From assembly GCA_018645325.1 (NCBI GenBank), contig JABGOU010000020.1, positions 1-63,013 of the forward strand: a DNA stretch of 63,013 nucleotides, in the 5' to 3' direction. This document shows positions 10,605 to 36,963 of the stretch, in pieces (position 1 is the first letter of the stretch; every line of letters starts with the position of its first letter). The notes beneath the pieces are model-generated. The model was not told where the DNA came from. It made no database searches and saw only the letters and a program-made list of their open reading frames with translations. The translations under genes and the position numbers were made by a program. The DNA is from Desulfobacula sp. GTDB taxonomy: Bacteria > Desulfobacterota > Desulfobacteria > Desulfobacterales > Desulfobacteraceae.

Positions 10605-10615
10605 CATTACAAAAA

Positions 10616-11362: not shown

Positions 11363-11566
11363 ATGCTTTGGTTTACTATTAAAATAAATTATAATAAAGA
11401 AAATGCATTGACCATTAACAAGGATGCGTTTCCATATATTTTATAATAATCCACACAATTTTTTATGGAACAGTATTTTGTAATACAGCTTTACAATATC
11501 TGAGTCAAATGGTATTTTAGAAAGATTAGCGGATGATTGATTTACAGGCATCATCAGGAGTTTAAT

Positions 11567-12019: not shown

Positions 12020-12049
12020 GAAATAGATTCCAAAAGGAACCCTACAATA

Positions 12050-14404: not shown

Positions 14405-14427
14405 TGCTATAGATTACGGAGTATTTT

Positions 14428-15219
14428 TTGAAGTTCATATCCCAGATCCTGATGTTGTTTTCATTGACTTTTTTCGGATGTTCAACCCCCTATGATCAAG
14501 TCCACATTCCCCAGCCTGAACCATCAATATATAAACCCGGCACTTTACCACCATCAGGCAAAAAAAAGCCTGCAACCCAGAATCCCTATAAAATAAAGGG
14601 AATTCAATATACCCCAATTGCAAGCTCCAAAGGCTTTGTACAAACAGGAATTGCCTCCTGGTACGGCAAAAAATTTCATGGAAGAAAAACATCCAATGGT
14701 GAAATTTACAGCATGTATGCCATGACCGCTGCCCACAAAACATTGCCAATGAATACCTGGGTAAGAGTTCATAACCTTAAAAACAAGCGGGAAATTGTTG
14801 TGAGAATTAATGATCGCGGCCCTTTTATCACAGGCAGGATCATTGACTTGTCCCATACGGGGGCAAGCCGCATCGGGATAATTGGAGCTGGAACAGGAAA
14901 AGTCAGGGTTACCGCACTTGGCAGGGCTGTATCCTATTCCAAGAAAACAAAAACCCCCACTGACTTTATACCCGTTGATTATTGGAAAGGAAATTTTACT
15001 GTACAGATAGGAGCATTCCAGGTCAAAGCCAATGCCAAAGAATACCGGTATAAATTATCAAAACACTATCAAAACGCTCATATTGCTGTTTTTACTGATT
15101 CCCGCGGGACTTTTTACCGCGTTAGAATAGGTCAATTCACCAATTTAAAAGATGCTGTAAGGTATAGTGAAAAACTGATTGCACAAGGCATTAGCACTGC
15201 CTTTGCAGTTGCGGAATAA
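14428..15219 (+). CDS. rlpA: RlpA-like septal lytic transglycosylase lipoprotein with SPOR domain
   Basis: A 263-residue lipoprotein. The start is a TTG at 14428 with GGAG six bases upstream. The signal peptide ends in a lipobox (TFFGC, Cys about residue 18). A double-psi beta-barrel domain (about 75-165) shows the RlpA signature 'GIASWYGKKFHGRKTSNGE', 'AAHKTLPMNTWVRVHN' and 'VRINDRGPF', including the catalytic Asp. A C-terminal SPOR domain (about 190-263, 'NFTVQIGAFQVKANA') binds denuded septal peptidoglycan. It acts at the outer membrane/septum during cell separation and is in line with lon and gmhB. Confidence 0.93.
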   Translation: MKFISQILMLFSLTFFGCSTPYDQVHIPQPEPSIYKPGTLPPSGKKKPATQNPYKIKGIQYTPIASSKGFVQTGIASWYGKKFHGRKTSNGEIYSMYAMTAAHKTLPMNTWVRVHNLKNKREIVVRINDRGPFITGRIIDLSHTGASRIGIIGAGTGKVRVTALGRAVSYSKKTKTPTDFIPVDYWKGNFTVQIGAFQVKANAKEYRYKLSKHYQNAHIAVFTDSRGTFYRVRIGQFTNLKDAVRYSEKLIAQGISTAFAVAE

Positions 15220-15229
15220 AGAAAAAGCC

Positions 15230-15790
15230 ATGAGACAGTTTATTTTTTTAGACCGGGACGGGGTTATAAATGTGGACTCTTCCAAATATATCAAAAATGA
15301 ATCAGAGTTTAAATTCATCCCCAAAAGCCCTGAAGCCATTGCCCTTCTCAGCCAAAATGGTTTTGACATCATTGTGATCACCAACCAGTCTTTAATAGGC
15401 AGAAAAATGGCCAGTCAAAAAACATTGGATGCTATTTTTAAAAAAATGAAGGACGGTATTAACAAAACAGGCGGAGAAATCAAGGATATCTTTTTTTGCC
15501 CCCATACTCCAGAGGACAATTGTTATTGTAGAAAGCCTGAGCCCGGACTTATTCTTGAGGCAAAAAAAAAATACAGCATTGATCTTAATCAATCTTTTAT
15601 GGTGGGGGACAGTGCCAAAGATATTGAATGCGCACGCAATGCCGGGTGTTCAAAAATGCTGTTGGTAAAAACTGGAAATGGAATAAAGGCGCAACAGCAG
15701 CTTTTTCAAAAAGGCATCATACCTGACTTTATTGGTAAAAATCTCTATGAAGCCGCCCTGTGGATTATCAATAGCGTGAACCCTAAATGA
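15230..15790 (+). CDS. gmhB: D-glycero-beta-D-manno-heptose-1,7-bisphosphate 7-phosphatase (HAD)
   Basis: The start is ATG 15230 (MRQFIFLDRDGVINVDS), 186 residues; the frame is open farther upstream inside rlpA. HAD motifs: I 'FLDRDGVI', II 'IVITNQS', III/IV 'CRKPEPG' and 'MVGDSAKDIECA'. The zinc-binding Cys/His set of GmhB appears as 'FFCPHTPEDNCYCRKP'. The enzyme removes the 7-phosphate in the synthesis of ADP-heptose for lipopolysaccharide inner core, consistent with an outer-membrane organism. The closely related histidinol-phosphatase HisB-N cannot be fully excluded, but there are no his genes nearby. Its stop overlaps the recD2 start by four bases. Confidence 0.88.
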   Translation: MRQFIFLDRDGVINVDSSKYIKNESEFKFIPKSPEAIALLSQNGFDIIVITNQSLIGRKMASQKTLDAIFKKMKDGINKTGGEIKDIFFCPHTPEDNCYCRKPEPGLILEAKKKYSIDLNQSFMVGDSAKDIECARNAGCSKMLLVKTGNGIKAQQQLFQKGIIPDFIGKNLYEAALWIINSVNPK

Positions 15791-17937
15791 TCACTATCAA
15801 AGGTATTTTAGAACGGCTCACCTATCAAAACCAGGATAACCATTATACTGTAGCCAAACTCAGGATTGCAAAAATCAATGACCCCGTCACCATTGTTGGA
15901 CATCTTGCCGGGGTGTTTGAAGGTGAAAGCCTTGAGATTTCAGGAAATTGGATATCCCATCCCAAATATGGAGACCAGTTTAAAACAGAAGTTTATAAAG
16001 TTATGTTACCTGCAAGTGTTTCAGGCATCAGAAAATATCTTGGTTCAGGAATAATTAAAGGCATTGGTAAATCCCTGGCCGATAAAATAGTTGATAATTT
16101 TGAAGAACAAACTCTTGATATCATTGAAAATGAGCCGGATAAGCTAAAGAATATCCATGGAATAGGAGAGGGCAAAAAAAAACTCATTGAACAGGCCTGG
16201 AACAAACATCACGCAGTAAGAAAGGTCATGCAATTTCTCCAGGAGAACGATGTGGGAGTGTATCATGCCGCCACAATTCTTAAAATTTATGGCTCCCGGG
16301 CACTGGATGTTTTACAGCAAAATCCCTATGCCATTGCAAAGGATCTTCCCGGGATCGGGTTTGCCCTGGCAGATAAGATTGCCATGAAAGCCGGTGTAAA
16401 AAAAGACGATGAAAACCGCCTTAAGGCATGCCTGCTCCATTGCCTCTTGTATTTTGAACAGGAGGGGCATGTCTATGGATTAAAAAAAACATTGTTTAAA
16501 GCAGGTTCAAGAACATCAGGTGTGGACCCGGATAAGTTTAATCAGGCTTTAGAGCTATTAATAGATGACAATGAAGTTACAACAGAAACTGATGAAGATG
16601 ATACAAAAGTCTATCTTTCAAGGCTTTACAGGGCTGAGTCAGGCATTGCCTCAAGGATGAAAGCCATTTTATCCATGCCAGTCATATCAAATCAAATCAG
16701 CAAAGACAAAATCCTTGAAGAAATTCTGACAAAACTGGCTATAAAATTATCTTCAGAGCAATTAAGTGTTGTCAATAATGTACTGCTTGAAAAAATAGTA
16801 GTCATCACAGGGGGACCTGGAACCGGTAAAACAACCCTGATACGGGCATTGTGTAAAGTTTTTAAACTGCAAAGGCTAAAAGTGGTGTTAAGCGCCCCCA
16901 CTGGAAGAGCAGCCAGACGTCTTTCCGAGGTAACCGGGGAAAAGGCCTTTACCCTGCATAAGCTTTTGGGGTTTGACTATGAAAACCAGACCTTTGAAAG
17001 AAATTTTGCCAATCCCCTTGAGCTGGACGTATTTATAGTGGATGAAGCCTCCATGGTTGATACTCTTCTCATGTACAGGCTCATTGAAGCCATGCCGGCA
17101 AGTGCAAGCCTGATGCTCGTGGGAGATACATTCCAGCTTCCTTCTGTGGGGCCCGGCAATATATTATCTGATATCATTGAATCTGGTCGCGTAAAGGTCT
17201 TTTCTTTAACAACTATATTCCGGCAGGCCCGCCAAAGCCCTATTATCATGTATGCCCACAGTATCCGGAAGGGAGAGATGCCTGATTTTCAAAGAACCGC
17301 ATCCCAAGAATTGTCAGAATTTTATTTTATTGAAAACCAGACATCCCAAAAAGTCGTTGAAACCATCCTCGATCTGTGTTCAAAAAGGATACCCAAAGCG
17401 TTTCCCCACATTGACGAAATACAGGTCTTGACACCCATGCATCGTGGAGAGGCCGGTACCATAAATTTAAACCTCCAGCTTCAAAAAGCATTAAATCGGT
17501 CTAAAGGCGGAATAGCCTCCCGGGACATCCTGTTTAAACCTAATGACAAGGTTATGCATCTGAAAAATAATTATGAAAAAGAGGTGTTTAACGGGGATAT
17601 CGGTATAGTGCATGAGGTGATGAAATCTGAAAACAAAGTTCTGGTAAATTATGATGGTCGAATTGTAGAATATGATGTTCTGGGACTGGATGAGCTTACC
17701 CTGGCATATACCATATCCGTCCACAAATCACAGGGCAGTGAATATGGCGCAGTCATCATCGCACTGACCACGGCCCACTTTCCCCTTTTGCAAAGAAACC
17801 TGCTATATACGGCCATGACCCGGGGCAAACATCTGGTAATCATTGTGGGGTCATCAAAAGCCCTTAAAATGGCTTTAAACAATAATAAGACAGCTTTACG
17901 CCTTTCCGGTCTTAAGCAAAAATTGATGATGCCCTGA
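15787..17937 (+). CDS. recD2: ATP-dependent RecD2-like DNA helicase
   Basis: A 716-residue superfamily 1B helicase of the RecD2 type (acting without RecBC). An N-terminal OB-like region and helix-hairpin-helix repeats (about residues 60-210, 'SGIIKGIGKSLADKIVDNF', 'IHGIGEGKKKL', 'LPGIGFALADKIA') precede motor motifs: Walker A 'VITGGPGTGKTTLIRAL', motif II 'VFIVDEASMVDT', motif III 'LVGDTFQLPSVGPG', motif IV 'TTIFRQA' and motif VI 'AYTISVHKSQGSEY'. It unwinds 5' to 3'. The start overlaps gmhB (ATGA), so it is translationally coupled to it. It ends the hsp20-lon-rlpA-gmhB-recD2 run. Confidence 0.93.
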   Translation: MITIKGILERLTYQNQDNHYTVAKLRIAKINDPVTIVGHLAGVFEGESLEISGNWISHPKYGDQFKTEVYKVMLPASVSGIRKYLGSGIIKGIGKSLADKIVDNFEEQTLDIIENEPDKLKNIHGIGEGKKKLIEQAWNKHHAVRKVMQFLQENDVGVYHAATILKIYGSRALDVLQQNPYAIAKDLPGIGFALADKIAMKAGVKKDDENRLKACLLHCLLYFEQEGHVYGLKKTLFKAGSRTSGVDPDKFNQALELLIDDNEVTTETDEDDTKVYLSRLYRAESGIASRMKAILSMPVISNQISKDKILEEILTKLAIKLSSEQLSVVNNVLLEKIVVITGGPGTGKTTLIRALCKVFKLQRLKVVLSAPTGRAARRLSEVTGEKAFTLHKLLGFDYENQTFERNFANPLELDVFIVDEASMVDTLLMYRLIEAMPASASLMLVGDTFQLPSVGPGNILSDIIESGRVKVFSLTTIFRQARQSPIIMYAHSIRKGEMPDFQRTASQELSEFYFIENQTSQKVVETILDLCSKRIPKAFPHIDEIQVLTPMHRGEAGTINLNLQLQKALNRSKGGIASRDILFKPNDKVMHLKNNYEKEVFNGDIGIVHEVMKSENKVLVNYDGRIVEYDVLGLDELTLAYTISVHKSQGSEYGAVIIALTTAHFPLLQRNLLYTAMTRGKHLVIIVGSSKALKMALNNNKTALRLSGLKQKLMMP

Positions 17938-18005
17938 TAACAATCAATTAATTCAGATTGGTGTCCAAATTATATTCATTTACAAAAACATAAAGATTTT
18001 GCTTA

Positions 18006-18920
18006 TCAGCTGTTCAGTACTTCCAGGATCTCCTTTATAACCTCTTCCGACTTTTTAACGGGTACCTGACAGGTTCCCACTCTTTGATGACCGCCACCCC
18101 CGTATTTTAACATCAGTGATCCCACATCCACTATGGCAGTTTTGTTAATGATGCTGTAGCCACAGGTGATCACGATATTCTGACGCTGAAACCCCCACAT
18201 GATTGTCATGGAAATATTCTGCTCGGGAAAAAGGCTGTAAAGTAAAAACCGATTCCCTGTATAGATTTCTTCTTGATCAAGCAGGTTAAGCAGCACAACT
18301 GAATCGTGAACCATGCTGTTCTCCATCACCATCTTACGAAACAGTTTGTCCTGTTCAAAATAGCGAATGGTCCGCTCTTTGACGTCTGGAAGTTCGAGAA
18401 TCTCTTTGTCCGTCATTTCACGGCAATAGTCAATCATGTCCATCATAAGGGCATAGTTGCTGATCCTGTAGTCCTTGTACCTGCCCAGACCGGTCCTTGG
18501 GTCCATGACAAATGACAGCAGCACCCATCCATCAGGATCAAGTATCTCCTCTTTGGTGAACAATGCTGAATCAGACTTATCCACTGCACTGACAAACTCG
18601 TCCAGGCGGTCGTTTTTAAGCCCGTCATATCCCCCATAATAATTATAAATCACCCGTGCAGCACTGGAAGCTTTGGTATCACACTTACCTTTAAATTCAC
18701 CAAAGATCTTTCGTTCTTCTTCGCTTGAGTGATGATCAAACCAGAGACCGCAACCCTTTACATAGGGCACATTGGCAAGTATATCATTGGATGTAACTTC
18801 TATGATGCCGTCCTGAACATCTTTGGGATGAACAAACTTGATGTCATCAATCTGACTGACTTCTTTTAGAATAGCTGCGCAACCAAGGCCGTCAAAGTCT
18901 GATCTGGTAATCAATCGCAT
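18006..18920 (-). CDS. DHH family phosphoesterase (exopolyphosphatase-like)
   Basis: A 304-residue DHH/DHHA1 protein. The N-terminal DHH domain has 'RSDFDGLGCAAIL' (motif I) and 'LWFDHHSSEE' (motif III, the DHH triad). The C-terminal DHHA1 RNA/substrate-binding domain ends with the hallmark 'GGGGHQRVGTCQVP'. Relatives hydrolyse nanoRNA, cyclic dinucleotides or polyphosphate using Mn ions; which applies here is not readable. A ribosome site (AGGAGGAGAAAGGT on the minus strand) supports the start at 18920. It is transcribed convergently to recD2. Confidence 0.87.
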   Translation of the reverse strand: MRLITRSDFDGLGCAAILKEVSQIDDIKFVHPKDVQDGIIEVTSNDILANVPYVKGCGLWFDHHSSEEERKIFGEFKGKCDTKASSAARVIYNYYGGYDGLKNDRLDEFVSAVDKSDSALFTKEEILDPDGWVLLSFVMDPRTGLGRYKDYRISNYALMMDMIDYCREMTDKEILELPDVKERTIRYFEQDKLFRKMVMENSMVHDSVVLLNLLDQEEIYTGNRFLLYSLFPEQNISMTIMWGFQRQNIVITCGYSIINKTAIVDVGSLMLKYGGGGHQRVGTCQVPVKKSEEVIKEILEVLNS

Positions 18921-19065
18921 ACCTTTCTCCTCCTATATGAATTCCAGGGTTTAAGAAACTTTAGCATAAAGACTCTTGAAATAACAGTGTAATTTCAAAT
19001 CAAACTTATCAATTAAATTCAGACAATCCTGGTATTCCCCCGCTAACAGCAAGTTATCAATATAT

Positions 19066-19332: not shown

Positions 19333-20277
19333 TTAACGGGGAAACGGCTGATCATCTAAGAATGAAAGATAGGATCTTAAATTGACTTTCTTATGGGTCA
19401 GTTTGAGTTTGAAACGAATATTTTTCCTGTGGAAATCAATACTTGCCGTAGAAATTTGAAAAAACTGTGCAATATCCTTGGTTGTTTTTCCCATCTTAAC
19501 CAAGGCTGTCACCTGAATTTCCCTGGGGGTAAGTCCATACTGTTTTATATTGGACAGATAGGCAAATTCGTTAAATGAATTATTCATATCTGATTCAATT
19601 TTATCCAGGTTGTCTGATAGACCCTCATTCAAATCCTGTTTTTTCAAGTGCTCCATAAATGGCTCGGCGATCTGCTTCATATTGACCGCAATTTTCTGCT
19701 CCGCAAGTATCGTGTTTTCATGATTGAGATTCATCAGCGTTTTGATGGTGGTTTTCAGTTCTTTGATCTCATCATTCTGATTGCAGAGCTGGATGGCCAT
19801 GGTAGCCGATTCAGTTATATCCACACAGGAAAGCAGCAGTCCTTTAATCTGGTTGCGGCTGTCTTTAACCGGAATCAGTTTCGCATCCCAGAAGGTTTCA
19901 TCCATGCCAACCCTGTTATCCAGCGGCACAGGATATTCGTAGAAGCTGTGCTGCTGGCGGCAGTCCCGAACGGATTTGAATATATCTACGATGGGAGAGT
20001 TTCTTCCGGCAAAATAATCAAAGTACTCCATTCCAATGATTTCTGTAGATGAACAATGGGAATAAGTATCAATGTATGCCTGATACAGCTTATTGCATTT
20101 ACGCAATACAAAGTTGGTGTCAAGCAGGGCAATACCCACCGGCAGAAAATCTGCCACCTTGTTTGACAGCAACTGTTCCCACAATCCATTCTGCTCAGGA
20201 AACCGATGAGTGAAATTCCGACTCTTCATTTCTTTTGCTTTTCGAACAAGATGATCAATGGTCAGCTGGGTTCTCAT
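19333..20277 (-). CDS. PAS domain LuxR family transcriptional regulator
   Basis: A 314-residue regulator. A PAS-like sensing domain (about residues 45-165, 'FLPVGIALLDTNFVLRKCNKLYQAYI', closing with 'LLLSCVDITESA') is followed by a coiled-coil linker and a C-terminal LuxR/GerE helix-turn-helix (about 250-310, 'LTPREIQVTALVKMGKTTKDIA', 'ISTASIDFHRKNIRFKL'). It is divergent from the ABC transporter/dimethylformamidase operon with a 355-bp shared upstream region, so it most likely controls that operon in response to substrate or redox state. No phosphoacceptor receiver domain is present. Confidence 0.88.
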   Translation of the reverse strand: MRTQLTIDHLVRKAKEMKSRNFTHRFPEQNGLWEQLLSNKVADFLPVGIALLDTNFVLRKCNKLYQAYIDTYSHCSSTEIIGMEYFDYFAGRNSPIVDIFKSVRDCRQQHSFYEYPVPLDNRVGMDETFWDAKLIPVKDSRNQIKGLLLSCVDITESATMAIQLCNQNDEIKELKTTIKTLMNLNHENTILAEQKIAVNMKQIAEPFMEHLKKQDLNEGLSDNLDKIESDMNNSFNEFAYLSNIKQYGLTPREIQVTALVKMGKTTKDIAQFFQISTASIDFHRKNIRFKLKLTHKKVNLRSYLSFLDDQPFPR

Positions 20278-20632: not shown

Positions 20633-21940
20633 ATGAAACAGTATTTCACATCAAAGCATGCGTCTAAAAAAACAATAATTTTAGGAGTGATTGTTGTTAT
20701 TTTCATTTTATGTGGTTTGATGTCATCTGTCAGTCTGGCAGGTTCGGCATCAAAACCCTCAGGAGATTCCATTGTAATCGGTCTACCTTTGGTTCAAAGC
20801 GGTCCTGTGGGTGTAGCAGACCACAATGACTGGCTGAACGGCACCAAACTGGCCATCAAGGAGATCAATGCTGCCGGCGGTGTGTTGGGCAGGCCCCTTA
20901 AAGCCAAAGTGGTGGATACCGATATCCTTACCCCTGAAGGAACCATGGCAGGTTTCCAGGCCCTGGCAGATGCCAAAGTGCACGCCATCTCTTCACCTTT
21001 TGTTCTGATTCCGCAGCCAGCCATGGATGCCATGGCAGCCTCTAAAGCACCATATGTACATGGAAACACCCAGGAGGCGACCTTGAGTCTTTTCAGGTCA
21101 AATACAACAAAATACAGCAATGCATTTCAGCTGGACCCCTCAGAAATTTGGTATGGCAGCGGTTTTATCACATTTCTGGATAACCTGAAAGCATCCGGTA
21201 AATGGAAACCCAAGAACGAAAAAATCCATATTGTTCAAGGACAGATTGCGTATACCCAGTTGATTTCTAAAGAGACACAAAAAGCCATTGAAAAATCAGA
21301 TTTCTGGAAACTTGCCAAAGTGACTAATGTCCAGTCTCCGGTGCAGGATTGGGGGCCGGTACTCCATGAAATAAGACGGGCAAAAGCAGGTGTGATCATG
21401 ATCGACCACTGGGTAGCGGCAGAACTGGCGGCATTTGCCCGGCAGTTTTCAATGAATCCATTAAAAGATGCTCTGGTTTATCTTCAGTATGGTCCTTCCC
21501 AGCCAGAATTTTTAGATATTGCCGGGGCTGCAGCTGAAGGGTTTATCTGGTCTACTGTTTACGGTGTGTACAACGACGATCGTGGCAGCAAATTCCGGGC
21601 AGATTACACAAAAGAATTTCCGGGCACCATGGGGTTGGCCTATACAGGCGGCGGCTATGATGCCACCTATATCCTGGCCAATGCGTGGAAAGCGGTTGGC
21701 GATGTAAGCAAATTCAAGGAAGTGTGTGACCATATCAGGAAAACCACTTATCGAGGGGTAAACGGTATGTATACCCTTGACAATGTTAGCCAGGCAGGTG
21801 TTCCCTATCCTGACAGCATCAAAGATCCTGAAAAAGGAATCGCACATCTTTACTTCCAGGTCCAGGGCGGTGCTCATAAAATCATTGAACCTGCACCGTT
21901 TAATGAAACAGAATTTATACCGGCACCCTGGATGAAATAG
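20633..21940 (+). CDS. ABC transporter periplasmic substrate-binding protein (amide/urea/branched-chain type)
   Basis: A 435-residue type I periplasmic binding protein. A basic N-terminus and hydrophobic core (about residues 15-37, ending 'SLAGSASKPSG') form a signal peptide. The mature start 'IVIGLPLVQSGPVGVADHNDWLNGTKLAIKEINAAGG' is typical of the Peripla_BP_6/LivK-AmiC-UrtA group. It captures a small substrate for the importer encoded by the next four genes. Because the same operon ends in N,N-dimethylformamidase subunits, an amide or formamide is the likely ligand; this is inferred from context only. Confidence 0.9.
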   Translation: MKQYFTSKHASKKTIILGVIVVIFILCGLMSSVSLAGSASKPSGDSIVIGLPLVQSGPVGVADHNDWLNGTKLAIKEINAAGGVLGRPLKAKVVDTDILTPEGTMAGFQALADAKVHAISSPFVLIPQPAMDAMAASKAPYVHGNTQEATLSLFRSNTTKYSNAFQLDPSEIWYGSGFITFLDNLKASGKWKPKNEKIHIVQGQIAYTQLISKETQKAIEKSDFWKLAKVTNVQSPVQDWGPVLHEIRRAKAGVIMIDHWVAAELAAFARQFSMNPLKDALVYLQYGPSQPEFLDIAGAAAEGFIWSTVYGVYNDDRGSKFRADYTKEFPGTMGLAYTGGGYDATYILANAWKAVGDVSKFKEVCDHIRKTTYRGVNGMYTLDNVSQAGVPYPDSIKDPEKGIAHLYFQVQGGAHKIIEPAPFNETEFIPAPWMK

Positions 21941-21945
21941 AGTTA

Positions 21946-22680
21946 ATGGATAATTCTCCACAGATGGAAAAACAGGCGGTTCTTGCATGTTCCGGGATAA
22001 CCCTTCAGTTCGGGGGACGGGCGATCCTTGAAGAAGTTGACTGTCACGTGTCTAAAAACGAAGTGCTGGGAATTATAGGTCCCAACGGGGCCGGTAAAAC
22101 CAGTTTTCTGGAAGTGTTGTCCGGACGTTATACCCCCGTGAGAGGACACGTATTCTTAAACGGACATGATGTGAGCAGCCGCCCCATCCACAAACGGGCA
22201 ATGTTAGGGCTTGCGCGTACCTTTCAGACACCGGTGGTACCCTATGCACAGACAGTATACGATGTGCTGAAATCTGCCCGAAAAGCATTCAAGCCGTATT
22301 TAAGCCAGTATATGGCCGAATGGGCGTGCGATCTGGTGGGGTTAAAAGTACCTAAAGAAATGCTGGCAGGTGCATTGGATACCCTTGACCGCAGGAAACT
22401 TCTGCTGGCCTGTCTTCTGATGCGCCGTCCCTGTGTACTGCTGCTGGATGAGCCCGCTTCAGGGCTAATCAATGTGGAAATAGATGAGATTGATCTCATC
22501 ATCCGCCTGATTTCAAAGGAACTGGGGTGTGGCATCATCGTTGTGGAACACCGGCTGGAACTGCTGGCAGCCATTGCCGAGCGGGTGATGGTGCTAAATC
22601 TGGGAAAAAAAATAGCTGAAGGACCGCCTCAAGATGTATTTAATGACCCAACCGTTCAGTCTGCCTATTTTGAGGCGTAA
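21946..22680 (+). CDS. ABC transporter ATP-binding protein (LivG/UrtD type)
   Basis: A 244-residue ATPase. Walker A is 'GIIGPNGAGKTSFLEVLSG' and Walker B 'CVLLLDEPASGLI', with H-loop 'IIVVEHRLELL'. The signature region reads 'LDTLDRRKLLLACLLMRRP', where LivG proteins usually have L-S-x-G-x-x-R-R-L-E-I-A-R; the central Ser-x-Gly is missing. Activity may still be supported by the canonical signature of the partner ATPase in a heterodimer. It begins 5 bases after the binding-protein stop and 6 bases before the next gene. Confidence 0.9.
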   Translation: MDNSPQMEKQAVLACSGITLQFGGRAILEEVDCHVSKNEVLGIIGPNGAGKTSFLEVLSGRYTPVRGHVFLNGHDVSSRPIHKRAMLGLARTFQTPVVPYAQTVYDVLKSARKAFKPYLSQYMAEWACDLVGLKVPKEMLAGALDTLDRRKLLLACLLMRRPCVLLLDEPASGLINVEIDEIDLIIRLISKELGCGIIVVEHRLELLAAIAERVMVLNLGKKIAEGPPQDVFNDPTVQSAYFEA

Positions 22681-22686: not shown

Positions 22687-23400
22687 ATGAAAGAGATATT
22701 GAAAATTAATGCATTATCTGCCGGTTACGGGCCTTTAAGGGTAATACATGACCTGGATCTTGAAGTGAAAGCCGGTGAAAAAGTTGGCCTTATCGGCCTG
22801 AACGGACATGGCAAATCCTCACTCATGCGAGCCATTGCCGGTTTGACAGACTGGCAGGACGGATCCATCATGTTTATGGGAAAGGAGATCGGCGGCCGGC
22901 GAATGCATGGTGCCGGCAGGCGAACCCATCGCATTGTCCGCCAGGGCCTTGCACTCGTGCCCCAGGGAGATGCGCTTTTCCCCGGTCTGACCGTCCGCGA
23001 GCATCTCGATTCAGGGGCATATACTGCAAAAACCTGGAAAACAAGAAAACAACGTCAGGAACGGGTTCTGGAAATTTTTCCAGCACTGAAACCCCGACTG
23101 AATGACCTGGCCGGAAAACTCTCCGGCGGAGAGCGGCGCATGGTCTCCCTTGGCAGGGGCTTTATGGCGGATGTACATTTATATTTGATTGATGAACCCT
23201 CGCTGGGACTGGCACCCATTGTCAGCAAAGCCGTCATAGATGCGCTTATGAAAATCGATATTGAAAACGGTGCCATGGTAATTGCAGAACAGATTGTATC
23301 CCTGCTCAAGGGCCGGGTGGACCGGATTTTAGGCATGCATGATGGTAAAATCAAAGCAGGAGAAGTGGATATGAACATTGGAAAACCGGTGCTGGTGTAA
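22687..23400 (+). CDS. ABC transporter ATP-binding protein (LivF/UrtE type)
   Basis: A 237-residue ATPase with full motifs: Walker A 'GLIGLNGHGKSSLMRAIAG' (His replaces the usual Ala), Q-loop region 'LALVPQGDALFPGLTV', signature 'KLSGGERRMVSLGRG', Walker B 'LYLIDEPSLGLAP' and H-loop residue replaced in 'MVIAEQIV' (Gln where His is common in LivF-like proteins). It pairs with the preceding ATPase. Tight spacing supports one operon. Confidence 0.9.
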   Translation: MKEILKINALSAGYGPLRVIHDLDLEVKAGEKVGLIGLNGHGKSSLMRAIAGLTDWQDGSIMFMGKEIGGRRMHGAGRRTHRIVRQGLALVPQGDALFPGLTVREHLDSGAYTAKTWKTRKQRQERVLEIFPALKPRLNDLAGKLSGGERRMVSLGRGFMADVHLYLIDEPSLGLAPIVSKAVIDALMKIDIENGAMVIAEQIVSLLKGRVDRILGMHDGKIKAGEVDMNIGKPVLV

Positions 23401-23402: not shown

Positions 23403-24278
23403 ATGGACTGGTTCATCGTTATCACTACATTAAATCTGGCAGCCATTTACGGGCTGTTGGCCATCGGCATCTCCATTATCTGGTCCAGCCTGAATATGGT
23501 GAATATGGCCCACGGGTTAACCTTTGCCGTATCCGGCTATTGTGCCTGGCTGGCTGCCACATATATTTCACCCCATCCGGCAATGGTATTGGTCGCCGGA
23601 ATTGCAGGCGGTGCAGTCATGGGGGCGATTATCTGTTCCATTGCCTTTCTGCCCCTTCATGACCGGCCCAATTTCACGGTTCGAAGTCTGATCACTACCC
23701 TTGCCATCAATCTGATCGGCATCCAGCTGCTGCTGCAGATATTCGGCCCCAGAATGAAACCGTTACCGAGAATTTTCGGTACCTGGTCTGTTTCATTCGG
23801 CGATACGTTTTTGACCGGAGATAAACTGGGTACTATTTTAACGTCCACCATTATTCTGACTCTCATCCTCGTATGGATTGTTAAAAGCCGTTACGGGCTT
23901 CAGATCCGGGCTATGATGCAGAATCCGGAAGGTGCGGCACTGGTTGGAATCGACGTACGGTTTACCGCCATGCGGGTCATGATAATTACAGGGGCTTTGG
24001 CTGGCCTTGCCAGTGTACTGCTGTCCCAGACATTTTTCGTCAATCCCAACGCTGGTCTGCAGCCGTTGATCAAAGGGCTGATTATTGCACTGGTCGGAGG
24101 GCTGGGCAGCATGACAGGTGCGGTCGTAGCCGCGTTTATCATGGCATTGATTGAAGCCGTCACAGCCACATACCTGAGCGGTCAATACGTATTAATCGGA
24201 CAATTTCTTTTTATCATCATCGTTCTGCTGATCCGTCCCCGGGGTATAGGCGGTATGCTGGATGAATTTCGTGAGTAA
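23403..24278 (+). CDS. ABC transporter permease (LivH/UrtB type)
   Basis: A 291-residue membrane protein with about eight hydrophobic segments, beginning with the family-typical 'LNLAAIYGLLAIGISIIWSSLNMVNMAHG' pattern and including the cytoplasmic coupling motif region 'MMQNPEGAALVGIDVRFTAMRVMIITGALAGLA'. It ends 'LLIRPRGIGGM', the classic LivH tail. It forms half of the translocation channel together with the next gene product. It starts 2 bases after the preceding stop. Confidence 0.92.
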   Translation: MDWFIVITTLNLAAIYGLLAIGISIIWSSLNMVNMAHGLTFAVSGYCAWLAATYISPHPAMVLVAGIAGGAVMGAIICSIAFLPLHDRPNFTVRSLITTLAINLIGIQLLLQIFGPRMKPLPRIFGTWSVSFGDTFLTGDKLGTILTSTIILTLILVWIVKSRYGLQIRAMMQNPEGAALVGIDVRFTAMRVMIITGALAGLASVLLSQTFFVNPNAGLQPLIKGLIIALVGGLGSMTGAVVAAFIMALIEAVTATYLSGQYVLIGQFLFIIIVLLIRPRGIGGMLDEFRE

Positions 24279-24283: not shown

Positions 24284-25816
24284 ATGACAGATGACACCAA
24301 ACAGACACCCAAAATGAATCTGGTCGGCCGCCGCAGATTCATACCCAGACCCAAAATCGACGGGGCAAAAACTTTTACCCGAAAACGGCTGCCGTTTTCC
24401 AAAAAACCGATCCTTAAATGGTATGCCGTCACAAACCCGAAAACACTGGGCCGGGAAAGAAAAATCAGGGACAAACGGCCGCTGTGGTGGGCATTATGCC
24501 TGCCGCTGGTGTTGATCCTACCCATTGTGTTCGGGAACAATACAGTTATTATAGCGGCAACCATATTTGCCATCTATGCCTCCATCAACCTGATGTGGAA
24601 CCTGATTATCGGAACAGCCGGCATCTTTTCACTGGCCACCATGGCAGTGGTGGGGATTGCCGCATATACCGCATCCTATTTTTCCATCAATTTTGGACTT
24701 ACCTGGCCGGCCATGCTCTTTGTGGGCACATTGGTGGGATTGGTATTCGGGGTGGTCATTGGCATTCCTTCCATACGTATTGAGAACCTGTACTACGCAC
24801 TGTTGACTTTAGGACTGGTAGAGCTCTGCCGTGTGTATGTGGTCCAGTCACGGACCTTAGGTTCTGCCACTGGCGGGCTTTACGGTGCCGACAGTTTTAT
24901 TCCGGAACAATTTGCACTCCAGCGGCCCGGAGTGATTATCGGTTTTATAGCAGCCTTTGTGCTGCTGTTACTCATGCTGTTTGTTTACAGATTGGTGAAT
25001 GAAAAAAGACTGGGGATGCTATTACGGACGGCAAGGGAGGATGAAGCGGCAGCAGAAGCCATGGGGATCGATTATGTCAAGATCCGAATACAGGTATTTA
25101 TCATATCATCCGCTGCATTAGGGTTCATCGGTGGATTTTATGCCGCCTATTTTAAAGGTGTATCACCATCGGTCTTCTCTATCCAGACCATGCTGCTCAT
25201 GTTTGCCATGATAGTTATCGGCGGTATGGACACAGCAGAAGGGGCAGTGGCCGGTACGGGTCTCGTGGTATTTATTGATAAAATACTGGTGCATATGGGC
25301 CCAAACAGAATCATCCTGATTGGTTTGATTATGCTGTTTGTCACCCTTTTTACCCAGGGGGGGCTATTGGGGATTAAAGCGCAGTTTAAAGCGTTCAGGA
25401 AAAAAAAGAAAAGCCAGCGGCGTGCGGCAAGAACACAAAAAGGGGGTGAAGTCATGTCTGAAGAAGCCACTGAAATTGAGGACAAACAATATATCTATTA
25501 CCGGCGGTTTGATAAAAAATGGAGGGATCACCTGAAAACACTAGTCACTGAAGAGCTGATTGAAGAGCATCGAAAAAAACCGCTGGGACAACACAGTGAT
25601 GCCCTGCAGCGCCTGATCAACTATTTTCGATGTCAGCCGCTTCCGGATAAGTATGCCATTTATGAAATAAAAGCGCTGAGAGAATACCAACTGGTGGCCC
25701 TGACTGGCGTTCGGGGAATGCCGCCCAGGGTGGTGGACGATAAAATATATACATCGCTTGATAAGGCATATCATGCTATTTTTCTGCGTCGGATGAATGA
25801 TCTACTGGAATCATAA
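24284..25816 (+). CDS. ABC transporter permease (LivM type) fused in frame to dimethylformamidase small subunit
   Basis: An uninterrupted 510-codon frame. Residues about 60-370 are a LivM/UrtC permease ('AAYTASYFSINFGL', 'GLVELCRVYVVQSRTLGSATGG', 'EDEAAAEAMGIDYVKIRIQVFI', 'IVIGGMDTAEGAVAGTG'), preceded by a long basic N-terminal tail. After the basic linker 'FRKKKKSQRRAARTQKGG', residues 391-510 match the small (alpha) subunit of N,N-dimethylformamidase: 'LQRLINYFRCQP', 'KYAIYEIKALREYQLVALT' and 'HAIFLRRMNDLLES'. No stop separates the parts. A ribosome site GGGGGTGA precedes an internal ATG at 25454, so the small subunit may also be made separately. A permease-tethered enzyme subunit would put hydrolysis at the membrane. 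Confidence 0.88.
   Translation: MTDDTKQTPKMNLVGRRRFIPRPKIDGAKTFTRKRLPFSKKPILKWYAVTNPKTLGRERKIRDKRPLWWALCLPLVLILPIVFGNNTVIIAATIFAIYASINLMWNLIIGTAGIFSLATMAVVGIAAYTASYFSINFGLTWPAMLFVGTLVGLVFGVVIGIPSIRIENLYYALLTLGLVELCRVYVVQSRTLGSATGGLYGADSFIPEQFALQRPGVIIGFIAAFVLLLLMLFVYRLVNEKRLGMLLRTAREDEAAAEAMGIDYVKIRIQVFIISSAALGFIGGFYAAYFKGVSPSVFSIQTMLLMFAMIVIGGMDTAEGAVAGTGLVVFIDKILVHMGPNRIILIGLIMLFVTLFTQGGLLGIKAQFKAFRKKKKSQRRAARTQKGGEVMSEEATEIEDKQYIYYRRFDKKWRDHLKTLVTEELIEEHRKKPLGQHSDALQRLINYFRCQPLPDKYAIYEIKALREYQLVALTGVRGMPPRVVDDKIYTSLDKAYHAIFLRRMNDLLES
25454..25816 (+). CDS. N,N-dimethylformamidase small subunit, nested reinitiation product
   Basis: ATG 25454 is in frame with the permease and has AAGGGGGTGA starting 14 bases upstream, giving a 120-residue protein (MSEEATEIEDKQYIYYRRFD at its start). 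Known DMFase small subunits are about 130 residues and share the pattern LQR-x(2)-NYFR-x-QP, a YAIY segment and C-terminal HA-[IV]-FLRR. The subunit caps the catalytic large chain in the heteromer. Whether the cell makes the fusion, the free form or both cannot be told from sequence; the strong internal ribosome site favours at least some free form. Confidence 0.6.
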   Translation: MSEEATEIEDKQYIYYRRFDKKWRDHLKTLVTEELIEEHRKKPLGQHSDALQRLINYFRCQPLPDKYAIYEIKALREYQLVALTGVRGMPPRVVDDKIYTSLDKAYHAIFLRRMNDLLES

Positions 25817-28165: not shown

Positions 28166-29434
28166 ATGGAAACATGCCACATGGATTCATATGAAATAAC
28201 CCTTGACAAACCCGGCGCTGACCGGTTTGTCAAGGAAAGTTATCCCATCCGGTACGGCCGGTTTTCAGAAATCAGAACACCGGAATATCTTTTCCAGTTC
28301 GATCTGAACGGTGAGATCCGGTTCATCCGCGGATTTTCCAAAAACTGGCCCCATCCATCCGAGTGGCTGAAAAGAACCGACGCCAATGACTGGGTGTATT
28401 ATTCCGTAGGTGGATACAACGGTATGTTTTATATCTTAGGAGAGTATTACCTGCCTTGCCTCTCTTATAAAAGCAATTCCATCTGGCAATACCATCCCGT
28501 TACCAAGTCTGGTGTTCAAGAAGCATTTACTGCATGGGACCGGCTGCAATCAGATATAACCACACCAACTGCTAATGAGGCATCTGAAAAAATCAAGCAA
28601 TTTTTAACAAAAGTGTCACATAATAGCAGTGCTGCCCTCGCCAATAGAGCGCAAAGGCTTCACAAGATTATCGGCACCCGAATATCTGTACTGCCGCCGG
28701 ATACCCGTCATGTGGATTACAATGTCATCCCCCTGATGATTGCCGATGGATGCCTCTATCACTGTGACTTCTGCTGTATCAAAACCAAAAATAAATTCCA
28801 GCCGCGATCCGAGGACAACATCCTGCAGCAGATAAGACAGCTCAAAGCATTTTACACAGAAAACCTGAGCAACTATAATGCCCTGTTTTTAGGAAACCAC
28901 GATGCCCTTGCTGCCGGAGGCGAACTGATACAACTGGCAGCCAGGAAAGCCTATGCATCATTTAATCTGGAAAAATCACATATTAAAAACCCGATTCTTT
29001 TTTTATTTGGGAGTGTGGATTCCCTTTTGTCAGGCAAAGATAAATTAATGGCGGCAATGAATGAACTGCCATATTATACGTATATTAACATCGGCTTTGA
29101 ATCAGCAGATGCCGCCACCTTAAACCACTTAAAAAAACCACTGGACCCTGCCAAAATAAGAGAGGCGTTCCAGATGATGATCCATGTGAACAATCAGTTT
29201 GATAAGGTTGAAATCACGGGTAATTTTATCTTAGGTGAAACACTTTCCCACAACCATACCCGATCGCTCATTGATCTTATGAACAGCTGTCTTGACCGGT
29301 ATTCCGGCAAAGGGGCACTCTATTTATCTCCTTTAAACACCAGCAAAAAACAACGCGAAATGCTCTCTCAATTTGTGGCCATTAAAAACTTAAGCCGGCT
29401 TCCGATGTATCTATACCTGATTCAACGATTGTAA
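28166..29434 (+). CDS. Radical SAM protein of the dimethylformamidase operon
   Basis: A 422-residue protein with a CX3CX2C cluster-binding motif (Cys196, Cys200, Cys203 in 'GCLYHCDFCCIKT') at the start of a radical SAM barrel (about residues 185-400). Downstream elements fit a B12-independent radical SAM core ('ALFLGNHDAL', 'YTYINIGFESADAATLNHLKKP', 'VEITGNFILGE'). The roughly 180-residue N-terminal part ('YLFQFDLNGEIRFIRGF') is not recognised. It lies 25 bases after the DMFase large subunit, so it may mature or modify the enzyme or process its product. The start could also be Met 6 (28181). Confidence 0.82.
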   Translation: METCHMDSYEITLDKPGADRFVKESYPIRYGRFSEIRTPEYLFQFDLNGEIRFIRGFSKNWPHPSEWLKRTDANDWVYYSVGGYNGMFYILGEYYLPCLSYKSNSIWQYHPVTKSGVQEAFTAWDRLQSDITTPTANEASEKIKQFLTKVSHNSSAALANRAQRLHKIIGTRISVLPPDTRHVDYNVIPLMIADGCLYHCDFCCIKTKNKFQPRSEDNILQQIRQLKAFYTENLSNYNALFLGNHDALAAGGELIQLAARKAYASFNLEKSHIKNPILFLFGSVDSLLSGKDKLMAAMNELPYYTYINIGFESADAATLNHLKKPLDPAKIREAFQMMIHVNNQFDKVEITGNFILGETLSHNHTRSLIDLMNSCLDRYSGKGALYLSPLNTSKKQREMLSQFVAIKNLSRLPMYLYLIQRL

Positions 29435-32755: not shown

Positions 32756-35554
32756 ATGAATACTGAACAGCAAACAAGAGCAGAACTGATTGATAAACAG
32801 CTTGCAAAAGCAGGCTGGAACGTCAATGATCCCACACAAGTCGTTCAAGAGTACGATATCCTTGTAGATCTTCCCGAAGGTGTTGCAGAAGCCCAAACCC
32901 CGTATCAGGGCCATCAGTTCAGCGACTATGTATTGCTGGGGAAAAATGGTAAGCCTGTTGCCGTAGTAGAGGCAAAGAAAACCAGTAAAGACCCGGCAAT
33001 AGGCAGAGAACAGGCAAAACAATATTGTTTTAATATCCAAAAGAATTCAAGTGGATCTCTTCCGTTCTGTTTTTATACCAATGGGCTTGAGACATTTTTT
33101 TGGGATTTGGACAATTATCCGCCGCGTAAAATTATCGGTTTCCCGACATTAGAGGATTTGGAACGGTTTCAATATATCCGGAAAAATCGGAAATCTCTGA
33201 CCCATGAATTGATAAACACAGATATTGCCGGACGTGATTATCAGATTCGGGCGATTCGTTCTGTCTTAGAAGGCATTGAACAAAAAAAAAGATCTTTCCT
33301 GCTGGTCATGGCAACCGGCACCGGAAAGACGCGAACAAGTATTGCTTTGGTTGATGCACTCATGAGAGCAGGCCACATGGAACGGGTTCTTTTCCTTGTT
33401 GACCGGATTGCATTGAGAGAACAGGCCTTAAACGCCTTTAAAGAATACTTGCCGGATGAACCCCGATGGCCAAATGTAGGCGAGAAATTACTAAGCAAGG
33501 ATCGGAGGATCTATATCTCAACTTATCCAACCATGCTGAATATTATTCGGGATGAATCCGGATATTTGTCACCGCATTTTTTTGATTTCATTCTAATCGA
33601 TGAAAGCCATCGGTCAATTTATAACACCTATGGGGAAATACTTGATTACTTTAAAGCAATAACCCTGGGGTTAACCGCAACGCCAACCAACATGATCGAC
33701 CACAACACATTTAATTTGTTTGAATGCGAGGAAGGACTGCCAACATTTGCCTATACATTTGAAGAAGCGGTCAACAATGAACCGCCCTTTCTTTCAAATT
33801 TCCAGGTCATGAAAATTCAGACCAAATTTCAAATGGATGGTATCAGTAAACGAACCATTACCCTGAACGATCAGAAGAAGTTGATCATGGAGGGTATAGA
33901 TGTTGAGGAAATCAATTTTGAAGGGTCTCAACTTGAAAAACAAGTAATCAATAAAGGCACAAATACATTGATTGTTAAAGAATTTATGGAAGAGTGCATA
34001 AAGGATTTTAATGGCGTGTTGCCGGGGAAAACCATCTTTTTTTGTGCGTCAAAAGCACATGCCCGCAGACTGGAAGAAGTCTTTGATATGCTTTTTCCTC
34101 AATACAAAGGAGATCTTGCCAAGGTAATCGTATCGGATGATCCAAGAGTTTATGGAAAAGGCGGACTTCTGGATCAATTCACCAACAATGATATGCCCCG
34201 CGTTGCCATCAGCGTTGATATGCTTGATACCGGAATCGATGTCAGAGAAATTGTAAACCTGGTGTTTGCAAAACCGGTCTATTCCTATACCAAATTCTGG
34301 CAGATGATCGGACGGGGCACCCGTCTTTTGGAACCCGCCAAAAGCAAGCCCTGGTGCATTGAAAAAGAGGTCTTCTTAATCATGGATTGCTGGGATAATT
34401 TTGAATATTTCAAACTCCAGCCCGAAGGCAAACAAACAAATTCCCAGCTCCCACTACCGGTGCGACTCTTTGGTATCCGTTTGGACAAGATTGAAAAAGC
34501 ATTGAACATTAAGAATGTGGCCATTTTTACAAAAGAAATCGAGACGCTTAGAAAACAGATCAATGGGCTTCCTGCTTCTTCCGTTATTATCAAGGAAGCC
34601 GCACAAATCCTTCATCAAGTAAAAGAAGATAATTTTTGGAATCATCTGGATACTGAAAAATTTGATTTTCTGAGAACCCAGGTCAAACCCTTATTTCGAA
34701 CCGTATCAGAAGCGGATTTCAAAGCGATGCGATTTGAAAAAGATGTACTTGACGTTTCCCTGGCATTGATGTCCCATGAAAAAGAAAGATTTGAAAATCT
34801 AAAAAACGGCATTGTTACTCAAATTAGTGAACTCCCCTTGTCTGTAAATATTGTGAAACGCGAAAAGGAGTTGATAAAATTTTCCCAGCAGAATAATTAT
34901 TGGTCAACCGCCATAGATGAAACATTTGATATCCTGGTTGAAAAATTAGCCCCTTTGATGAAATTTAGAGAAAAAGACACGGGTGGATCAGGACCTGTTC
35001 TACTTGACCTGAAAGATAAAGTAAAAAATAAAGAATTTGTTGAATTTGGGCCTCAAAACGAGGCGGTCAGCATCACCCGTTACAAAGAGATGGTGGAAGA
35101 ACAGATTATGGCACTGACAAAAAGCAGCCCCATCCTTTTAAAGATTAAGAGGGGTGAGCCGCTCTCTTCCGAGGAAACCCAAGAACTGACCCAAACGCTT
35201 TATGACAGTCATCCCCATATTACTGAAAATTTATTGCAAGCTGTCTATCAGAACAGAAAAGCAAGATTTGTCCAATTTATCCGCCATATTCTGGGGATTG
35301 AAATTTTAACGAGCTTTCCTGTTACCGTTGCAAAGGCGTTTGATCAGTTCATTAAAGAACATACAGACCTTAACAGCCGGCAGTTGGAGTTTTTAAGGTT
35401 GTTGAAAGCGTTTATTATCGAGCGCGAGAAAGTTGAAAAACGCGATTTGATCCAGTCCCCTTTTACGGTGTTGCACCCCCAGAGGATTCGGGGCATTTTC
35501 AGTCCTGCTCTGATCAATGACATCCTGGCGCTGACTGAGGAGCTGGCAGCATGA
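32756..35554 (+). CDS. hsdR: Type I restriction enzyme, R (motor/nuclease) subunit
   Basis: A 932-residue HsdR. The N-terminal PD-(D/E)xK nuclease is visible as 'DYVLLGKNGKPVAVVEAKKTSKDP' with Q-rich 'GREQAKQY'. The superfamily 2 translocase has Walker A 'VMATGTGKTRTSIAL', motif II 'ILIDESHRSI' (DESH), motif III 'GLTATP' and motif VI 'QMIGRGTRLL'. The C-terminal helical region binds the methylase core. It restricts unmodified DNA after translocation. The length is typical of the EcoR124/KpnI-type clades. It overlaps the next gene by four bases (ATGA). Confidence 0.95.
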   Translation: MNTEQQTRAELIDKQLAKAGWNVNDPTQVVQEYDILVDLPEGVAEAQTPYQGHQFSDYVLLGKNGKPVAVVEAKKTSKDPAIGREQAKQYCFNIQKNSSGSLPFCFYTNGLETFFWDLDNYPPRKIIGFPTLEDLERFQYIRKNRKSLTHELINTDIAGRDYQIRAIRSVLEGIEQKKRSFLLVMATGTGKTRTSIALVDALMRAGHMERVLFLVDRIALREQALNAFKEYLPDEPRWPNVGEKLLSKDRRIYISTYPTMLNIIRDESGYLSPHFFDFILIDESHRSIYNTYGEILDYFKAITLGLTATPTNMIDHNTFNLFECEEGLPTFAYTFEEAVNNEPPFLSNFQVMKIQTKFQMDGISKRTITLNDQKKLIMEGIDVEEINFEGSQLEKQVINKGTNTLIVKEFMEECIKDFNGVLPGKTIFFCASKAHARRLEEVFDMLFPQYKGDLAKVIVSDDPRVYGKGGLLDQFTNNDMPRVAISVDMLDTGIDVREIVNLVFAKPVYSYTKFWQMIGRGTRLLEPAKSKPWCIEKEVFLIMDCWDNFEYFKLQPEGKQTNSQLPLPVRLFGIRLDKIEKALNIKNVAIFTKEIETLRKQINGLPASSVIIKEAAQILHQVKEDNFWNHLDTEKFDFLRTQVKPLFRTVSEADFKAMRFEKDVLDVSLALMSHEKERFENLKNGIVTQISELPLSVNIVKREKELIKFSQQNNYWSTAIDETFDILVEKLAPLMKFREKDTGGSGPVLLDLKDKVKNKEFVEFGPQNEAVSITRYKEMVEEQIMALTKSSPILLKIKRGEPLSSEETQELTQTLYDSHPHITENLLQAVYQNRKARFVQFIRHILGIEILTSFPVTVAKAFDQFIKEHTDLNSRQLEFLRLLKAFIIEREKVEKRDLIQSPFTVLHPQRIRGIFSPALINDILALTEELAA

Positions 35555-36954
35555 TTCATCGAAAAACAACATCACAAGAACTGGCCCTTATCCTGGAAGA
35601 GGGGGAAGGCTATACCCTGGAGTTCAAGCAGAATATCAACACTGACCTTTCAAAGGAGCTGGTTGCCTTTGCCAATGCCTCCGGCGGCAGAATTTTTATC
35701 GGTGTGAACGACCAAAACCAGGTTGTCGGGTGCGATTTTTCCAATTCTCTATTTTCTAAAATTGAAACCATGGCCGCTGCCTGTGATCCGCCTGTGGCCA
35801 TATTCATCGAAAAGCTGACGGACAAAAAACTCGTTGTCGTTCATGTGCCCGAAGGAGCAAATCGTCCCCATCGGTGCAGCAAGGGATTTTATTTAAGAAA
35901 CGGGGCCAGCTCCCAAAAAATGAATACCCATGACATCACTGCGTTTATCCAGTCCGAAGGCAGGGTGAGGTTTGATCAGCAGCTTCGGATGGACCTTGAC
36001 TGGGAAACGGTTCTGGATGACGCCCGGCTGGCACATTTCCTGTCTCTGGCCGGAATTTCCCAAAAAAGTGACCCTCAAAATCTTCTGCTGAATCTGGGGG
36101 CCGGTGATGTCAAAGACGACCGGTTTTATCTGAACCAGACCGGTGTGCTTTTTTTTACCAGAGATCCAGGGCTCAGACAGCCGTTTGTTAATGTGGTTTG
36201 TGCTCTTTTTAAAGGGACAACAAAAGCCTATATTCTGGATCGAAAGGAATTAACCGGCAATATCCTTGAAAATGTTGAAGAGGCGTTGCTGTTTTTAAAA
36301 AAGCATTTGCAGCTGCGCTGGGAGATCACAAAGGACAGCGCCCGCCGCAATGAAATCCTGGAATTGCCGGAAGTGGCCTTGCGCGAAGCGGTGATCAATG
36401 CCATCTGTCACCGCGATTACTTCGAGCAGGGCGCCCAGGTCATGGTGGAAGTCTTTGACGACCGTGTGGAAATTTACAATCCGGGCGGATTGCCCAAAGG
36501 ATTGCCTGAAAAGGATTTTGGCAAAAGAAGTGTCTGCCGAAATCCCAATATTGCCGCATTGTTGCTACGATGTGACTACATCGAGAAAATGGGTTCCGGT
36601 ATTGAGCGGATATATGAAGCCCTGAAAAAAGAAAATTGTCCCAATGTAAAAATTGATTACACCACCTTGTTTTCTCTTGAGTTTTCAAGACCAAGCTATA
36701 AAACAGTCTCTGAAACTGAAGAACCTAGGGAGAAACCTAGGGAGAAAACTAGGGAGAAAACTAGGGAGAAAACTAGGGAGAAAATCTTTGAACTGATTCG
36801 TAACAACCCGGATATTACAACAGCTCAATTGGCTGAATTAACCGGACTAACCCCCAAGGGGATCGAATGGCAGATCGCACAACTTAAGAAAAACGGCAGT
36901 CTCAAACGCATCGGCCCGGATAAGGGCGGTCACTGGAAAATAAAAGATGATTAA
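35551..36954 (+). CDS. AlbA_2 (Schlafen-like) ATP-binding regulator in the type I RM operon
   Basis: A 467-residue protein. The N-terminal AlbA_2/Schlafen domain spans about residues 10-125 ('YTLEFKQNINTDLSKELVAFANASGG', 'IFIGVNDQNQVVGC'). A GHKL-like ATP-binding region follows (about 260-380, 'LPEVALREAVINAICHRDYFEQG', 'EIYNPGGLPKGL'). The tail is a winged helix ('NPDITTAQLAELTGLTPKGIEWQIAQLKKNGSLKRIG'). Between them is a charged linker made by five 12-bp repeats (REKP/REKT). Such proteins are common inserts in type I operons and may regulate them or act in defence. It lies between hsdR and hsdM with overlap on the left and a 9-base gap on the right. Confidence 0.85.
   Translation: MIHRKTTSQELALILEEGEGYTLEFKQNINTDLSKELVAFANASGGRIFIGVNDQNQVVGCDFSNSLFSKIETMAAACDPPVAIFIEKLTDKKLVVVHVPEGANRPHRCSKGFYLRNGASSQKMNTHDITAFIQSEGRVRFDQQLRMDLDWETVLDDARLAHFLSLAGISQKSDPQNLLLNLGAGDVKDDRFYLNQTGVLFFTRDPGLRQPFVNVVCALFKGTTKAYILDRKELTGNILENVEEALLFLKKHLQLRWEITKDSARRNEILELPEVALREAVINAICHRDYFEQGAQVMVEVFDDRVEIYNPGGLPKGLPEKDFGKRSVCRNPNIAALLLRCDYIEKMGSGIERIYEALKKENCPNVKIDYTTLFSLEFSRPSYKTVSETEEPREKPREKTREKTREKTREKIFELIRNNPDITTAQLAELTGLTPKGIEWQIAQLKKNGSLKRIGPDKGGHWKIKDD
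36724..36783 (+). repeat. Five-unit 12-bp tandem repeat coding for REK(P/T) linker
   Basis: Five consecutive units of (c/a)ctagggagaaa, two with cc and three with ac at the start, encode repeats of Arg-Glu-Lys-Pro/Thr. Copy changes keep frame and would alter linker length only. Confidence 0.95.
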
Positions 36955-36963
36955 GGAAAAAAA

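Follow-up and report, generated by a model that had tools for sequence, protein, structure and literature searches.

A single open reading frame in Desulfobacula sp. encodes a LivM-type ABC permease joined in frame to the small subunit of dimethylformamidase (DMFase), and carries at the border of its two domains a ribosome site and start codon from which a free copy of the small subunit could also be made. The frame lies on a 63,013-nt stretch of DNA (contig JABGOU010000020.1), the whole of which is called the window here. It is stop-free across the joint and spans 510 aa (57.4 kDa), and a start at the internal ATG (25454-25456) would yield a free product of 120 aa, with a computed mass of 14.5 kDa (Table 1). 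The original prediction had left open whether such a gene produces a membrane-tethered subunit, a free subunit or both. The comparative evidence, namely the conservation of the frame in 24 fused rows (fused loci, the window included), signals at synonymous sites of the joint and a clade that carries a free gene, favours both, and the gene is thus probably dual-product.

Table 1. Positions of the fused gene, its parts and its operon neighbours in the window.
Feature	Position	Strand	Basis or remark
PAS + LuxR-type regulator, divergent	19333..20277	-	Pfam GerE, E 3e-11; PAS_4, E 8e-7
Periplasmic substrate-binding protein	20633..21940	+	Pfam Peripla_BP_6, E 4.1e-30
ABC ATPase (LivG/UrtD-like)	21946..22680	+	Profile match
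ABC ATPase (LivF/UrtE-like)	22687..23400	+	Profile match
LivH-type permease; presumably pairs with the fused LivM	23403..24278	+	Pfam BPD_transp_2, E 6.5e-37
Fused gene, LivM-type ABC permease + DMFase small subunit	24284..25816	+	One open frame; also fused in 23 other rows
LivM permease part, residues 1-390	24284..25453	+	Pfam BPD_transp_2
Internal Shine-Dalgarno AAAGGGGGTGA	25439..25449	+	Sits in codons for K-G-G-E
DMFase small-subunit domain, residues 391-510	25454..25816	+	PDB 6lvb_B match
DMFase large (catalytic) subunit, 768 aa	25835..28141	+	6lvb_A, E 5.9e-189; Pfam DMFA2_C

Both domains named in the original prediction were matched. Residues 91-353 of the permease part match Pfam BPD_transp_2 (E = 2.7e-31), and the small-subunit part matches chain B of the DMFase structure 6lvb (E = 4e-12), with query residues 8-117 aligned to chain residues 15-127. 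For the small-subunit part no Pfam or NCBIfam model was found at E 0.001, no solved structure was matched by the sequence of LivM, and AlphaFold prediction of the fusion (three sequences) gave no usable model (pLDDT 37, pTM 0.22). The genome itself holds one match to the small subunit, which is encoded only within the LivM frame. The permease part begins with a basic extension (21 K/R and 5 D/E in residues 1-65) and ends, ahead of the joint, in a basic tail (11 K/R and 1 D/E in residues 362-390). By the positive-inside rule, basic segments of this kind face the cytoplasm, and the tail that leads into the joint is therefore expected to be cytoplasmic. Within the N-terminal extension (24284-24478), V14, G15, G27, R33, R35, N51 and D63 are invariant among nine rows, in an alignment where the L082 row is 17 residues short at its start, which affects that list of columns only; the extension could provide a further point of contact with the enzyme.

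The operon holds a complete importer set of the LivHMGF/Urt type, with a substrate-binding protein, two ATPases and two BPD_transp_2 permeases, and none of these subunits reaches the curated NCBIfam cut-offs for Liv or Urt proteins (LivM, for example, scores 92.1 vs 366 bits). In the large subunit, Y394, Y434, E516 and H514 align with Y399, Y440, E521 and H519 of 6lvb_A, the iron ligands and catalytic His, such that the 2-Tyr-1-Glu iron site and the catalytic His of the two-subunit DMFase are present. Because the enzyme family and the iron site suggest a formamide-type amide, the substrate is probably a small amide, either N,N-dimethylformamide (DMF), N-methylformamide or a relative of these. 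The DMFase genes are described, in the accessible text of an earlier study, as activated by the LuxR-family protein DmfR (PMC4543880), and the divergent PAS/LuxR-type regulator next to the operon is by analogy a possible counterpart of it. A radical SAM gene (28166-29434) occurs directly downstream of the large subunit.

The setting of the operon makes its horizontal gain by this bacterium likely, because its GC content is higher than that of the surroundings (0.48-0.49 in the operon core vs 0.35-0.45), because relatives in the order and phylum appear to lack it, and because it starts just past the end of a colinear region. The contig is colinear with a genome of the same genus (G014), at ~84% DNA identity over most of 6110-18972; the colinearity ends at 18972 and the operon begins just beyond. 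Among 290 further genomes from the same order and 394 others from the phylum, none gave a small-subunit match in single-sequence searches, which could miss distant copies. In the tree the window falls nearest to L083/L085, with support of 86/88, which is below the starred threshold. Just downstream of the operon occur type I restriction-modification genes (R, M and S; 32756-40178), as in a variable region. Elsewhere in the same genome, a dimethylamine methyltransferase-like gene (L150; G000 contig C90:756-2114) matches PF09505 (E = 5.1e-199) and contains one in-frame TAG, a candidate pyrrolysine codon; when 14 control genomes were searched with PF09505, only Methanosarcina acetivorans matched. 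With such a gene in its genome, which fits, indirectly, a hydrolysis of DMF to dimethylamine and formate, this host could make use of the dimethylamine.

The original prediction had proposed a search for other genomes in which LivM and the small subunit share one frame. Using the small subunit as query, we found the fusion in 23 other rows, with both parts in one frame in every case (24/24 including the window). Its carriers include Methylopila (L022 and L023, the latter being the methylotroph Methylopila capsulata), plasmids of Rhizobium, Agrobacterium, Aminobacter and Ensifer, and further genomes from the order and class to which Methylopila belongs, the operon recurring in Hyphomicrobiales and their plasmids. 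Among the genomes drawn from the order, 53/397 had a small-subunit match and at least 15 carried a fused copy (L022, L023, L087, L075-L086); the class draw gave matches in 33/385 genomes, two of them seen fused (G694, G1091), and the phylum draw in 7/398, three of them seen fused (G694, G930, G1757). Matches were also detected in 42 plasmid records, 26 of the matches being full-length (55.8-59.2% identity); six of these 26 were examined, and all six, each on a complete plasmid, were fused. The gene order substrate-binding protein, ATPase, ATPase, LivH, LivM::small subunit, large subunit is kept in the 20 rows that reach both ends of the operon, with extra genes in some, the remaining rows (L081, L085, L086, L125) being ended by contig ends.

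These relatives leave a negligible chance that the fusion is a product of sequencing or assembly error or of contamination of the draft. The joint does adjoin homopolymer runs (A8 and G5), and the draft to which the window belongs is split into 157 contigs, but other assemblies and all six of the complete plasmids carry the fusion too, which rules out a homopolymer or assembly slip at the joint for the family. Contamination is likewise not supported, as the contig is colinear with the same-genus genome over most of the operon's left flank (6110-18972).

Small subunits without a fused LivM occur in Paracoccus (dmfA1), Methylobacterium DM1, Caballeronia, Rhodococcus, Mycobacterium, Halalkalicoccus and further genomes. 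In a distant operon type (L136, L137), a distant LivM is encoded directly ahead of the small subunit, but separately and in a different frame, and this gene order is plausibly the ancestral arrangement, from which the fusion would have arisen through a small mutation. Such an origin, together with the strong internal ribosome site seen in most fused rows, could mean that neighbouring genes were merged by a small mutation and that only the free subunit matters, the LivM tail being a tolerated passenger. We consider this reading improbable and give it little weight: a stop codon occurs at the joint in 0/24 fused rows, which span three deep clades, and a close relative of this LivM was found directly before an unfused small gene at 0/30 loci scanned (some with short upstream flanks). 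The constraint on the fused domain in genomes that also carry a separate free gene, described below, speaks against it as well. Long open frames around some unfused small subunits (L127-L133) were considered as fusions and rejected, as no LivM match was found in them; the upstream part in L127, considered as a gene, reads as a chance open frame in GC-rich DNA.

At the joint, the residues K-G-G-E are invariant in 24/24 fused rows and are followed by [MVAP]-[LM]-[PS]-E-E-A. The ribosome site that had been proposed ahead of ATG 25454 is present in the window, with AAGGGGGTGA at 25440-25449, upstream of the ATG. A start codon occurs at the joint in all 21 rows outside a clade of three genomes discussed below (ATG in 19, TTG in 2), and can be either of the two codons that follow K-G-G-E. 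Since the start position varies over two codons, what is kept is a start codon and not a Met at one fixed position. Overall, the in-frame ribosome site and start at the domain border are conserved, and were lost or weakened in one clade, which has a separate free gene.

The pairing of the joint with the anti-Shine-Dalgarno (anti-SD) sequence, its codon choice and the openness of its mRNA were tested in 13 start-bearing representatives, after leaving out, before counting, eight near relatives (L023, L025, L034, L035, L077, L085, L086, L087), among them the bias-opposing L025, L085 and L086. The predicted pairing averaged -13.7 kcal/mol, with 12/13 joints at or below -10, far stronger than that of 182 other in-frame Met codons (mean -2.2 kcal/mol, 0 at or below -10). 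Two anti-SD tails were tried, a short one and then a longer one; with the short tail some rows were stronger and some weaker. The longer tail, which we take to be that of alphaproteobacteria, was found in 2/16 genomes searched.

Much of this pairing is explained by the peptide alone, as synonymous recodings of the joint already average -10.5 to -13.8 kcal/mol. It could thus be argued that only the fused protein matters, and that the joint is a conserved linker in which the purine-rich codons of E-K-G-G-E mimic a ribosome site by accident; at the protein level the linker is in fact maintained in L027 and L080 as well, where the joint has no start codon. The synonymous sites, however, make this explanation unlikely. 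The joint pairs more strongly than recodings generated according to the codon use of each locus (Fisher 0.0078, Stouffer 0.0012), with a mean mid-p of 0.51 at the 182 control Met codons. The window alone is not significant in this test (mid-p 0.40, or p 0.13 with the short anti-SD tail), because its own codon use favours AAA. The joint Lys is encoded by AAA in 12/13 representatives vs 3.9 expected (P = 4.5e-7) and the first Gly by GGC in 1/13 vs 7.6 expected (P = 1.3e-4), P values that presuppose independent genes, which related ones are not. To obtain a control with a shared history, we ranked all the conserved Lys and Gly columns of the operon: the joint Lys heads the 19 Lys columns (z 5.6, the next being 2.9), and the joint Gly shares the top place among the 160 Gly columns with one column of LivH. 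In all 21 start-bearing rows, which are related, AAA occurs in 18 and GGC in 2, the exceptions being L084 (AAG-GGC), L025 (GGC at the first Gly) and L085 and L086 (AAG). One further row, L126, has kept the ATG with weak pairing (-9.3, mid-p 0.59), and no second copy is found in its stretch. The LivH column concerned, at alignment position 180, is a conserved Gly in which GGC is just as rare as at the joint (1/13).

The mRNA at the joint is also predicted to be unusually open: compared with 172 internal Met codons, it reaches the 92nd percentile or higher in 9/13 representatives and falls lower in L083, L082, L022 and L084. Taken with the retention of the start codon at either of two adjacent positions and with the absence of the codon bias in the clade with a free gene, the initiation signals at the joint appear to be under selection at synonymous sites. 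The same signals bear on a further possibility, in which the fusion is made and a protease then cuts the joint, making the internal ribosome site unneeded for the free form. The conserved charged linker could serve as the cleavage site, but a protease cut would leave the synonymous-site bias, the retained start codon and the open joint mRNA unexplained, and we regard this possibility as very remote.

In the three genomes that depart from this pattern, Ensifer M8 (L027), G745 (L080) and G809 (L081), the fusion and the large-subunit gene are separated by a free small-subunit gene. Their joints read GCA-CTG, GCG-CTC and GCT-TTG, respectively, offering a start codon (TTG) in L081 and none in the other two. 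The first Gly is GGC in 3/3, the synonymous mid-p values are 0.94, 0.59 and 0.86, and joint openness falls at the 5th, 4th and 65th percentile. As the three form one clade (support 100/100), they amount to one evolutionary contrast and not three. The fused domain of this clade nevertheless keeps all of the 34 sites at which 20 fused rows from outside it are invariant (L086, which runs into a contig end, was left out of the 20-row set). The clade's own free copies keep 15, 21 and 22 of the 34, and the other unfused small subunits scored keep 18-26 (the four best 23-26), so that a low score, being general among unfused copies, is by itself no sign of relaxed selection on the free copies. Between L027 and L080, the fused domains differ with dN 0.058 and dS 1.97, and the free copies with dN 0.34 and dS 1.43, the dS values being near saturation.

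Because its 34 sites are intact despite the presence of a separate free gene, the fused domain seems to be needed as a fusion. The free subunit seems to be needed too, and in this clade the free gene may have taken over the role of the internal start. The second small and second large genes found in the same cluster of G928 (L084), whose AAG-GGC joint has an ATG, fit the free-gene pattern as one case. Additional, weaker small-subunit genes are present elsewhere in eight of the genomes with a retained joint site (G694, G695, G837, G806, G839, G941, G946, G1082), and the statement that a genome has no free gene therefore holds only for the operon.

From these comparisons of sequence we think it likely that the operon encodes an amide importer together with an iron amidohydrolase, in which LivM::small tethers the large subunit and the joint ATG additionally supplies free small subunit. 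In the Paracoccus DMFase, according to the accessible text of its description, the large subunit has no activity by itself, and the active-site entrance is formed by both subunits (PMC7686228). In the mechanism that we propose, the binding protein, the two ATPases, LivH and LivM would import the small amide, and full-length LivM::small in the membrane would recruit the large subunit to the importer's cytoplasmic side, where the iron amidohydrolase would split the substrate. Some ribosomes would start at the in-frame joint ATG and release free small subunits, allowing for more enzyme than importers, or for mixed enzymes with one tether, and tethering may be advantageous, for instance by letting imported substrate be captured locally. 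More tentatively, and in our estimate with the odds somewhat against it, the importer would covalently carry an obligatory subunit of its cargo's enzyme and hold the active-site entrance at its cytoplasmic mouth, such that uptake and hydrolysis occur in one membrane machine, with the internal start or, in one clade, the extra gene setting the ratio of tethered to free enzyme.

If true, this would be a natural transport-plus-catalysis machine, in which an importer is covalently joined to the enzyme of its cargo and the ratio of tethered to free enzyme is written into one gene. It would also provide a simple system in which to ask whether direct passing of substrate from importer to enzyme is advantageous, with a natural comparison available between an internal start and a separate free gene, and it bears on the biodegradation of solvents.

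The original prediction had further stated that substrate import coupled to hydrolysis at the membrane would be new for this enzyme. The fused arrangement is not peculiar to this genome, and among the matches listed from open-licence PMC papers, a scope outside which most subscription journals fall, we found no description of the LivM::small fusion. Open-licence PMC papers likewise yielded no LivM/amidohydrolase fusion and no fusion of a permease domain with channeling. The architecture is probably a new variant built from known parts. The subunits of the Paracoccus DMFase (DmfA1/DmfA2; PDB 6LVB) are both homologous to those found here and share the iron-site residues and catalytic His, as far as the accessible text describes them (PMC7686228). 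The two systems are also alike in having an adjacent LuxR-type regulator; the small subunit is a separate gene in Paracoccus, whereas here it forms the C-terminus of LivM. With the LivFGHM and UrtABCDE importers the operon shares its set of subunits and Pfam families, and differs from them in a LivM that carries an enzyme subunit and in scores below the curated Liv/Urt cut-offs.

A precedent for encoding an amide hydrolase together with a binding-protein-dependent importer is fmdCABDEF of Methylophilus methylotrophus, which comprises a porin, a formamidase and an amide/urea importer (PMC10781810). In contrast to the operon described here, its hydrolase belongs to the FmdA-AmdA family, and the accessible part of that paper mentions no fusion. 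For the production of two proteins from one frame, a good precedent is SctQ/YscQ of type III secretion, for which the accessible text describes the full-length protein and, through an internal start, its C-terminal domain as a separate product (PMC4295842). The flagellar homologues of SctQ, FliM and FliN, are according to the same text separate proteins, in parallel with the three-gene clade. The proteins of the two systems are unrelated, and the SctQ parts are described as belonging to one structure, whereas here a transporter and an enzyme subunit are joined.

The enzyme part of the fusion is overlooked in current annotation: the fused protein is named branched-chain amino acid ABC transporter permease in 5/6 of the plasmid records, that is, in each of the five examined that are annotated, the sixth (L027) having no annotation there. 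Variation on the operon can be seen in individual rows: in L126, an outer-membrane porin-like frame, named by reading alone, occurs between LivM::small and the large-subunit gene (~7862-9088), as a porin is also encoded in fmdCABDEF, and in the Aminobacter plasmid (L026), two large-subunit genes lie in tandem behind the fusion (7437-12180).
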